From: Staphylococcus argenteus
Lineage (GTDB): Bacteria > Bacillota > Bacilli > Staphylococcales > Staphylococcaceae
Length of the DNA stretch: 64,000 nucleotides
Direction of reading: 5' to 3'
NCBI RefSeq assembly: GCF_000236925.1
Contig: NC_016941.1
Coordinates: 2,554,566-2,618,565, forward strand
Position numbers and translations under genes: made by a program. A model generated the notes under the pieces. It ran no database searches. It was not told the origin of the DNA and saw only the letters and a list, made by a program, of their open reading frames with translations. Below are positions 45,099 through 47,611 of this stretch, piece after piece (position 1 is the stretch's first letter; every line of letters starts with the position of its first letter).

Positions 45099-46439
45099 TT
45101 AAAAGGCCGTCATTATCACTTTCGAAATTAGTCCTATACTAATGATCAAAACTAATGATGTCACCATTTGTTTTCCAATCAATTTAAGTGCCGATTTACC
45201 ACCTAAATGTTTCAATAACATCGTCATCGTGACTGAACATGCTGTAAATGTTGAACTAAAAAATACAAGTAGTAGCAACTGTATCACTGTTAGCTCCTTT
45301 AGTACGGAACCTTGTTGCATATTAAACAAGAGCATGCCATCTTTTCGAATCATTGAAAATAAAATACCTGGGGACAACTCTGACGAAATCCCTAATAACG
45401 ATAAAACAGGTGTAAACACTTGTGATACAACATTCAAAATTGGCGTTAGTGATAAAATGCTAACAATAAGACAGATTGTTATAAAAATGGGCAATGCTTG
45501 AGCGATAAACATTTGAACATTTTGCCACATTTGTAGCACCATTTGACGTAAATTGGGCATATGCAGTTTCCTATCATAAGGCATAGGAATACTATGTTGT
45601 TGCTCATTCTTTTTCAGCCAAATTCTATTATGTAAAATACCACCTAAAAGTACTAATATTAAGTACGGCATAAATAGCCATGACTTTCCAGCTACACTAA
45701 AAATAGATAATGTCGCACCTATTTGATAACTGCAAGAACTACCAAAGCTTATTAAGCTCATACACTGCGTCTTTGAACAAGCATGACATTGATGTGCCGC
45801 TTGTGAAATGGCTGCTGCATTACATCCAAATCCTTCTAATAGCGGCACGATATCATTCCCTTGTAATCCTATCTGTAACATTGACGGTTCAATTGCCCAT
45901 ATCATCCATGATTTGAGTCCTGTTTGATCAATAACAGCAGTTGATAAACTAATCAATATGACAACTGGCAATGCCCATACGAGAGAATATGTCCCAAGTG
46001 ATAACACACCGTAATCACCAAATAATATATGCTGTAAAATATCGTGATTGAGCAATGTTATTTGAGTTAAATATTCTATCCATGTTGATACATACTGATT
46101 TTGAAACCAATCTGAAAATTGATACGCTATATAGATAGGCAAAGCAAACATTAAAAATATCAACATCCAAGCTAAAAATGTCGCGCTTATTTTCGGTCTT
46201 AAATGTTGACGCTCTTTTTGAAATAAAGTTAATTGTTCAATCGCATGTTTGCTTGCAATGGGTGAAGAAACAACACTTTCCGCTAATGAAATATCTAATT
46301 TCTGTTTAATAATTAGTAATCTTAATTTTGCTTTTTCTGTTGCGGTAAGTTTATCCGCATGACTAATAACCAAATAATGAGGCTCATTAGGTATGGGCGT
46401 ATAATGCCCCGTTCTCATATCATATTTCACTTCTAACAT
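45099..46439 (-). CDS. FeoB-like Gate-domain permease lacking the G domain
   Basis: A 446-residue polytopic protein with about eight hydrophobic segments. It resembles the membrane half of FeoB/nucleoside-recognition (Gate) proteins: [19 protein letters not shown] is close to Feo[14 protein letters not shown], and [15 protein letters not shown] mirrors the second Gate. An added Cys/His cluster, [14 protein letters not shown], follows the first Gate motif. There is no GTPase domain. The start overlaps the flavoprotein end. The ATG at 46439 has the better spacing; one at 46445 is possible. Metal transport is inferred. Confidence 0.75.
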
Positions 46440-47539
46440 GTGCATGACACTTCACAACATGAATAATCATCTAAATACATTTGATTTTTTTGGTAATTTT
46501 CAATGACCTCTTGTTTAGCTGGTAAGCCTTCCCGCTGTGTTAAAAGATGGGCAAGTACTGCAAATCGCGCTCTGAATTTATAGATATAGCATAATTTGGC
46601 ATTATCATTTTCAACTGTTGCGCCAATCATAAAAATATTCGGATAACGTGTCGATTCATCATGATTTGTTAATTTAATATCTTGATTAGTAGTCGTAAAC
46701 AGTTGTTGAACGATTGGATTTTTTGTTGCATCAAAGCCAGTTGCTAGTATTGGTTCATGAGGCGTAAGCACACTTTGTCCGCTATCAAAACTGATATGAT
46801 ACTGACCATTGTTAAACTCAATATCTTTAACCGTATAATGTACATTCATTTCAATGCGTGCACCTTGTTTAATAACATTACCTAGTCGCTGACGTGTATA
46901 AGGTGACAATCTAACACTAGGATCAGCATCTGGATCATTTAATCCGGTTGTACTTGTGTAAAGTGCAATGTCAGAGCCATTTTTTGCAAGTTGATAAGCT
47001 GCATCAAAGCCACTTTCATTACCACCAATAACTACATATTGTCCTTTATTAAAGGTATTAAAGTCTTCAATTTCACTATAATGAATACCATATTTAAAAG
47101 GCTTTTTAGGGAAACTATAATCACCTGTTGCGACAAAGATATAATCCGCGTTATATGTCTCTGTTGTCGTTGCAATCGTATAGTATGCATCATCTACAGA
47201 TACATTTGTGACAACGGTATTTTCAATGATATTCAGTTCGTAATGGTTGGCGACCACTTGTAAATATTCAGCATATGTTTCTCCGGAAATATGTTCTTCA
47301 TTAAATGTAAATGCTGGTGAAGTATCCATAGAAACTGCATTCATATCAGGCATGCCAAATCCATTAGACGTAAATGACGGCGTAATCGTACGCGTCGATT
47401 TAGGCCAATGTTTAAATGAATGGCCTACTGTTCCTTTTTCTAAAATAATGACATCTTCTATACCGAAATCTTTTAAGGTAATGGCCATACCTATACCTGC
47501 AGCACCGGCACCGATAATAGCCACTTTATGATGTTGCAT
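46433..47539 (-). CDS. FAD/NAD(P)-dependent oxidoreductase with Cys-rich tail
   Basis: A 368-residue flavoprotein of the CzcO/YpdA-like monooxygenase-reductase group. The FAD motif [10 protein letters not shown] is at 10-19 and the NAD(P) motif [17 protein letters not shown] at about 170. ATGD and ATGF motifs precede and follow. The last eight residues are C-C-E-V-S-C-T-C, a likely metal or thiol site not needed for the fold. It is the first gene of the operon, with its start 44 bases from the Zur-type palindrome. A ketone, sulfide or thiol substrate cannot be chosen. Confidence 0.83.
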
Positions 47540-47582
47540 GTTAACACTCCCTCAATGATCTATTTCATGTTATTGTTTCTGA

Positions 47583-47611
47583 TTATAAATCGTAATAATT
47601 ACGATTTATAA
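47583..47611 (-). promoter_or_regulatory. perfect Zur-type palindrome before the flavoprotein operon
   Basis: A 29-base perfect palindrome centred at 47597 contains TCGTAATAATTACGA, the core of the Firmicute Zur box (TCGTAAT-N-ATTACGA). The minus-strand TATAAT at 47582-47587 overlaps it, so zinc-loaded Zur should block transcription. Confidence 0.82.

Follow-up and report, generated by a model that had tools for sequence, protein, structure and literature searches.

In Staphylococcus aureus, zinc uptake induced by zinc limitation is carried out by AdcABC and the Cnt/staphylopine system (PMC5666155); these are ABC transporters and a metallophore, and their proteins are unrelated to those described here. 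In strain Newman, NWMN_2479-2483 code in order for an amidohydrolase, an alpha/beta hydrolase, a COG0523 protein, a hypothetical protein, and a FAD-dependent oxidoreductase, the last three of which are induced 43.2-, 83.1-, and 152-fold, respectively, by calprotectin, and to a lesser extent by sulfide and nitroxyl (PMC5480029). The same gene order is present in a 64,000-nucleotide stretch of Staphylococcus argenteus (contig NC_016941.1, positions 2,554,566 to 2,618,565; referred to as the window, with its own numbering used throughout), and a Pfam check of the window supports the first two of the five assignments, the amidohydrolase and the alpha/beta hydrolase. Here, we describe the flavoprotein (FLAV) and the permease (PERM) that share an operon with the COG0523 gene; with gene order as in PMC5480029, the orthologs are SA2370/NWMN_2483 for FLAV, SA2369/NWMN_2482 for PERM, and SA2368/NWMN_2481 for the COG0523 protein.

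The response of the S. aureus orthologs to metal limitation is already known, and what is new here is the recognition of FLAV and PERM as one module. The literature searched, with most subscription papers outside its scope, contains expression values under all three locus tags, but no function and no description of the FLAV-PERM pair. RNAseq of zur, fur, and mntR mutants is available, and the NWMN_2481-2483 tags were not found in the accessible text of that report (PMC11253595). The word FeoB is not present in a Zur review (PMC6103462) or in a survey of COG0523 proteins (PMC2770081).

The operon and its Zur-type operator

All three genes lie on the minus strand. FLAV is an NAD(P)/FAD-dependent oxidoreductase of 368 amino acids (aa) with a C-terminal CCxxxCxC tail (46433 to 47539; Pfam Pyr_redox_3), PERM is a 448-aa FeoB-related Gate permease without a G domain (45099 to 46445; Pfam Gate), and the third product is a 296-aa COG0523 (CobW/G3E) GTPase with a CxCC motif (44109 to 44999; Pfam cobW and CobW_C). 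FLAV shares 96% identity with a cluster named S. aureus, and PERM shares 91% with its largest homolog cluster. The FLAV and PERM genes overlap by 13 bases, or by 7 if PERM begins at Met3 (46439), the likely start, and 99 bases separate PERM from the COG0523 gene. A likely ribosome-binding site, GAGGGAG, is recognizable by sequence at 47547 to 47553 (minus strand), and the drop in fold induction along the S. aureus operon is consistent with a single promoter before FLAV.

Upstream of FLAV is a perfect palindrome of 29 bases (47583 to 47611, no strand assigned), which palindrome and core scans, shuffles, and same-genus loci mark as a putative Zur operator. It has 14-base arms and one center base, TTATAAATCGTAAT-A-ATTACGATTTATAA, and contains the exact Zur core TCGTAATAATTACGA at 47590 to 47604. 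No perfect palindrome in the window is longer (the runner-up, at 15873 to 15895, has 11-base arms), and among 60 dinucleotide shuffles an arm length of 14 was reached in none, 13 in one, and 11 in seven. The exact core TCGTAATNATTACGA occurs once in the window and twice in the 2.79-Mb genome, where 0.036 copies are expected from the base composition of the window. The second copy is 26 bases upstream of a gene for an 89-aa S14-like ribosomal protein, presumably rpsN2. Two genomic sites have one mismatch, one of them 455 bases before a gene presumably of the cntK type and the other inside a coding region. A putative promoter, recognized by consensus match only, has TTGAAA as its -35 (47635 to 47640, minus strand) and TATACT as its -10 (47612 to 47617, minus strand) with a spacing of 17, and ends at 47612 so that the palindrome covers the expected transcription start; promoter-like matches are at chance level in the scan (25 versus 24.0 expected). 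A sequence-only reading of this DNA had described a 29-base perfect palindrome with a Zur-type core before the operon, exactly as is seen, and had placed it overlapping the -10. The two adjoin and share no base, and the box lies at the promoter, over the expected start. Fur or PerR control of the operon was considered and rejected, with Fur and PerR cores being rare before FLAV.

The same arrangement recurs widely among relatives, for which we used the best 80 of 141 confirmed loci from a permease profile search. These are in Staphylococcus, Mammaliicoccus, Macrococcoides, and many other Bacillota, as well as in genomes or metagenome-assembled genomes of Chloroflexota, Verrucomicrobiota, Kiritimatiellae, Achromobacter, and Stutzerimonas. 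In all 30 same-genus loci, the window included, the core is present at zero to three mismatches about 1.1 kb before PERM (28 of 30 at zero to two). A Zur-like core with no more than two mismatches lies within 350 bases before FLAV in 47 of 77 loci (L111, L114, and L117 being set aside with no FLAV open reading frame [ORF] called), compared with at most one for each of five permuted palindromes. Anywhere in the locus, it is present in 66 of 67 Bacillota loci (controls 2, 10, 1, 0, and 19), with L065 the sole exception, and a core at one mismatch is present in 58 of 67 (controls 0, 0, 0, 0, and 3); seven of eight further family loci also have a Zur-like core. The Bacillota-type core was found in none of 13 non-Bacillota loci, but a Gram-negative Zur-like box, TGTTATTATATAACA, is 70 bases before FLAV in Stutzerimonas (0.07 matches expected), and a one-mismatch form is present in Achromobacter (0.15 expected). 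Five other non-Bacillota loci inspected for this box gave nothing clear except for one (L111) that resembles the Achromobacter locus.

Many of the neighboring genes belong to zinc starvation, with COG0523 genes in 61 of the 80 loci, S14 in 30, dCTP deaminase in 22, FolE2 in 17, Fur family regulators in 10, and ZnuA in 9. COG0523, S14, deaminase, FolE2, or ZnuA is present in 63 loci, and 17 hold none of these. As a rough yardstick, Staphylococcaceae genomes of 2.0 to 3.2 Mb have zero to four COG0523 matches, or about 0.01 to 0.02 per 13-kb locus. The sequence-only reading had named retention of the three genes in unrelated contexts without Zur boxes as a result that would count against it, and the opposite is seen in the Bacillota loci. 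The comparative evidence for control of the Zur type and for a zinc starvation link is strong and is joined by the published induction of the S. aureus orthologs (PMC5480029), and we consider both the control and the zinc starvation role of the operon to be nearly certain.

FLAV and PERM as a gene pair

In 78 of the 80 loci, PERM has a FLAV gene on the same strand no more than 381 bases away; the other two are a Paenibacillus locus (L114) and L117, a contig of 4.7 kb. The order is reversed to PERM-FLAV in three loci (L110, L112, and L120), all of them Verrucomicrobiota. Among 108 Staphylococcaceae genomes, PERM (E value of 1e-10) is present in 38 and FLAV (1e-30) in the identical 38, and among 398 class-level genomes, PERM (1e-60) and FLAV (1e-50) are each present in the same 24, of which 12 are Staphylococcaceae; two class-level genomes (G390 and G309) have partial or split copies. 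FLAV and PERM distances are correlated with r of 0.882 for 75 loci and 0.853 for the 58 outside of the Staphylococcaceae, with a permuted maximum of 0.103. The PERM family has at least 608 clusters at an E value of 1e-40; among the 120 listed of these 608 matches, several are named ferrous iron transporter B, and no Rosetta-stone fusions are present. As judged from gene content and order, FLAV and PERM form one module, a near-obligate gene pair. We note that in one Staphylococcus genome (G079, locus L165) FLAV, PERM, and the COG0523 gene are all broken while the Zur-like core is still there, a case in which the whole module was lost together.

The COG0523 gene is more loosely associated; of 17 Staphylococcaceae loci, 10 include one. 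Nonetheless, COG0523 orthologs (at an E value of 1e-60, a cut picked after viewing the list) are present in 36 of the 38 Staphylococcaceae genomes with the pair versus 6 of the 70 without, and in a tree six sampled unlinked copies group with the linked staphylococcal ones in a single clade (support, 0.99). The COG0523 protein therefore belongs with the regulon and is coinherited with the pair. Where the pair is present and the COG0523 gene is unlinked (13 genomes, L140 to L152), an ORF of 177 to 213 aa precedes COG0523 in every case, and a Zur-like core (no more than two mismatches) is just upstream in 10; one such ORF tested by Pfam is a dCTP deaminase. Mammaliicoccus has the order FLAV-PERM-178-aa ORF-COG0523. 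A dCTP-deaminase-like gene directly before the unlinked COG0523 gene, seen also in L155 and L157, makes for a possible zinc-sparing pair, with the deaminase-like enzyme presumably zinc independent. The identification of the third gene as a CobW/COG0523 GTPase is well supported by its domains and CxCC motif. It resembles ZigA and ZagA (YciC) in its cobW domain, CxCC motif, and Zur linkage, but is a different paralog from S. aureus ZigA (NWMN_0417), the other COG0523 protein with which PMC13339975 deals.

The permease and the flavoprotein

PERM has two stretches of the Pfam Gate domain (PF07670) but lacks the FeoB_N G domain, with G1 to G3 missing, and aligns by hhalign with the window's own FeoB over 326 columns (E value of 5.2e-10), bearing out its sequence-only description as a FeoB-like Gate permease without a GTPase. 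It shares with FeoB (TIGR00437) the Gate domains, a GFGCN hairpin, and cysteines at helix breaks, and its relatives outside the staphylococci have an N-terminal G domain. It differs in having CSYQIG where FeoB has CSARLP, in an extra CxxCx4C cluster, in its subthreshold score, in the loss of the G domain in staphylococci, and in its flavoprotein partner, its Zur-type control, and the lack of FeoA. Membership of FeoB was rejected, as PERM scores about 80 bits against TIGR00437 (cutoff, 315.65; the true FeoB of the window scores 622.6) and has neither the N-terminal G domain nor the CSARLP core motif; CSYQ[IL]G is present at this position in all 80 loci, where the FeoB of this genome has CSARLP. 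A P-loop is present in 58 of 78 PERM ORFs of relatives but in none of 16 in Staphylococcus and Mammaliicoccus; the G domain is kept fused in most relatives outside the staphylococci and was lost at least twice. A true FeoA-FeoB pair in the window, at 15299 to 17544, makes a useful contrast to PERM.

Seven cysteines are near-invariant in PERM, and the three in common with FeoB are at the hairpin tip and helix breaks. The extra conserved cluster, which the sequence-only reading took to be of Cys and His, is of Cys only (C220, C223, and C228), and in the structural model it is predicted to be at the cytosolic mouth. The model has a CNT-like fold, as in elevator transporters with hairpin tips, although PERM, unlike CNT proteins, has cysteines at its hairpin and its helix breaks, and identity over the aligned part is 11%. 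Foldseek gave no match to the PERM model at an E value of 0.001 or below. We know of no solved membrane part of FeoB, and the failure of FeoB to turn up in the PERM structure comparison is uninformative.

FLAV is identical to PDB 3d1c at 355 of 368 residues (96%, counted from the alignment), including the tail, and 3d1c is an ortholog, presumably from S. aureus. Its name, Flavin-containing Putative Monooxygenase, claims a monooxygenase; the structure match table gives no function, and no paper mentioning this code was found in the literature searched. The nearest solved proteins otherwise are the Bdr/YpdA bacillithiol disulfide reductases, of the same FAD/NAD(P)H class, from which FLAV differs by its CxxxCxC tail and by GAGAAG in place of the Cys-bearing FAD motif GGGPCG. 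FLAV was rejected as a YpdA/Bdr member, with a TIGR04018 score of 93.4 bits (cutoff, 339.9) and without the Cys of GGGPCG. Filing PERM under FeoB and FLAV under YpdA is wrong on the tests made; the pair may function in the manner of a FeoB that has a redox partner. In an alignment of 76 FLAV proteins (75 loci with an ORF of 300 to 460 aa plus the window), C317 is conserved in all, C366 in 74, C362 and C368 in 73, and C361 in 58; the tail pattern is missing in 3 of the 75 ORFs (L075, L091, and L099), which are perhaps cut. The C-C-x-x-x-C-x-C tail noted earlier is there in the window's FLAV, and its CxxxCxC part is near-invariant in relatives. The accompanying proposal of reductive mobilization is not directly supported: as zinc(II) is redox inert, FLAV more likely acts on thiols. 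By gene order, FLAV possibly corresponds to SAOUHSC_02904, one of five uncharacterized genes with an excess of protein-altering mutations during colonization (PMC11730646).

Genome G000 has a second flavoprotein gene (L168, 822 to 1976; contig C1, 889321 to 890475) with a Zur-like core of two mismatches 24 bases upstream (L168, 2001 to 2015). Its neighbors are presumably mnh antiporter-like genes, and its homologs group in loci L069, L099, L121, and L128 near FLAV-PERM, with 36% identity to the L099 copy. Its mapping to NWMN_0815/SA0806 is probable, a gene upregulated 229-fold with calprotectin (PMC5480029). Another two-mismatch core in the same genome (L170, 830 to 844) is 112 bases before a transporter-like gene, judged by eye to be of the major facilitator type, and could be there by chance.

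Possible mechanisms and flanking genes

The explanation we favor, with a little more than even confidence, is a Zur-repressed zinc starvation operon with FLAV and PERM as a two-protein core, in which PERM imports zinc or a substitute metal. It draws on what the sequences hold: a Zur-like operator, the near-obligate pair, zinc starvation neighbors, conserved cysteines, and loss of the G domain. Metal import by PERM is probable, with zinc the likelier cargo, while the chances that FLAV is a thiol-redox partner are evenly balanced. In the model that we infer, for the metal and the direction of transport as much as for the redox role, the docking, and the COG0523 partnership, Zur would repress the operon and zinc starvation would switch on the FLAV-PERM machine. 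PERM, as an elevator-type member of the FeoB superfamily, would bring in zinc or else a substitute divalent metal by means of conserved cysteines at the first hairpin and two helix breaks together with the CxxCx4C cluster predicted at the cytosolic mouth. FLAV, as an NAD(P)H flavoenzyme, would dock on the cytosolic side and maintain the PERM thiolates and those of its own tail in the reduced state, such that the metal could be taken over and released, and the COG0523 GTPase of the same regulon would pass the metal on or protect a client enzyme. More tentatively, and with our doubts outweighing our confidence, FLAV-PERM may be a new class of zinc importer, in which a flavoenzyme that uses NAD(P)H, and whose CxxxCxC tail carries metal, opens the cysteine pathway of an elevator-type FeoB-derived permease; its range would take in Verrucomicrobiota, Chloroflexota, and Proteobacteria as well as staphylococci, often under the wrong name of an iron transporter, and its ancestral G domain would have been shed at least twice.

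Several observations weigh against the reading of the box or against the favored explanation. Cores with three or fewer mismatches number 8 in the window (6.33 expected), and those with two or fewer number 36 in the genome versus 42 for the reversed control, with no enrichment; such loose matches are at chance level, and only the strict match is therefore informative in this genome. Box counting also misses a shown Zur target, with no core at three or fewer mismatches in the locus taken as zigA (L016). Calprotectin withholds several metals and is not zinc specific. The Paenibacillus locus has PERM without FLAV, COG0523 is absent from 19 of the 80 loci (some of them short contigs), and the unlinked COG0523 copies, being behind a deaminase-like gene, may serve that pathway. 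The PERM model matches nucleoside transporters in fold, from which no substrate can be read, and the cytosolic placement of the cluster comes from the helix count in the model, loop charge, and CNT topology. No transport, metal-binding, or redox assay of these proteins was found in the literature searched.

The relationship of PERM to FeoB, by Gate domains and hhalign, and the relatives named ferrous iron transporter B raise the question of other metals. PERM could import Fe(II), Co(II), or Mn(II) to replace zinc in some enzymes when zinc is scarce, with FLAV holding the metal or its ligands in reduced form, and a reductase suits a redox-active metal better than zinc; however, the operator is of the Zur type and not Fur or PerR, the window already has a true FeoAB, and many neighbors are zinc starvation genes, leaving metal substitution unlikely, if worth keeping in mind. 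That PERM is simply a divergent FeoB, an ordinary iron importer in the Zur regulon by chance, has the same homology and database names behind it, but is very improbable given its score far below the FeoB cutoff, the differing core motif, the absence of a feoA-like gene from the operon, and cores that are Zur and not Fur.

The seven near-invariant PERM cysteines, the CxxxCxC tail and C317 of FLAV, the near-obligate pairing, and the bacillithiol disulfide reductases as closest solved relatives beside 3d1c would all suit a transmembrane thiol-redox module, with the PERM cysteines relaying electrons from FLAV to disulfides or to metal-thiolate sites, so that zinc is released or zinc-stripped proteins are guarded, and with PERM not being a transporter of metal. 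We think this improbable, as the PERM model is like elevator transporters with hairpin tips, and the three FeoB-shared cysteines are at the expected substrate-binding positions, a hairpin tip and helix breaks. The COG0523 protein could also act in trans as the G protein that replaces the lost PERM domain in staphylococci, which is compatible with the favored explanation and in keeping with the missing G1 to G3, a COG0523 gene in the operon, the coinheritance (36 of 38 versus 6 of 70), and the single clade of linked and unlinked copies. COG0523 genes are, however, also near permeases with G domains, are in the locus in little more than half of the Staphylococcaceae loci, and when unlinked sit behind a deaminase-like gene; a plain substitute for the lost domain is weakened accordingly, and we view a trans-acting role as quite doubtful. 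Of the separate G protein proposed from sequence alone, the lost domain and the COG0523 gene in the operon stand, and its role as the permease's own partner is in question, with COG0523 elsewhere in several staphylococci. The overall proposal of a zinc starvation system likewise survives in its Zur control, its permease without a G domain, and its cysteine-tailed redox partner, but not in a plain separate G protein or in reductive mobilization.

If the favored explanation is correct, the S. aureus group has a further zinc acquisition route beside AdcABC and Cnt, and the whole PERM family, including members named for ferrous iron, belongs to zinc starvation. To our knowledge, FLAV-PERM would then be the first case of redox coupling in the FeoB superfamily, and the PERM-type permeases with and without G domains would constitute a natural experiment on the role of the FeoB GTPase.

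The operon is flanked downstream by an inverted repeat (43989 to 44033, no strand assigned), seen in the sequence between the convergent COG0523 and alpha/beta hydrolase genes and possibly a two-way terminator; the scan that gave the promoter matches did not report it. Upstream and on the same strand are three small genes of 98, 123, and 92 aa (47947 to 48892). By position, these are perhaps SAUSA300_2522-2524, which are reported as ClpX-affected hypothetical genes (all three in PMC5603545, and 2523 and 2524 in PMC6848492).
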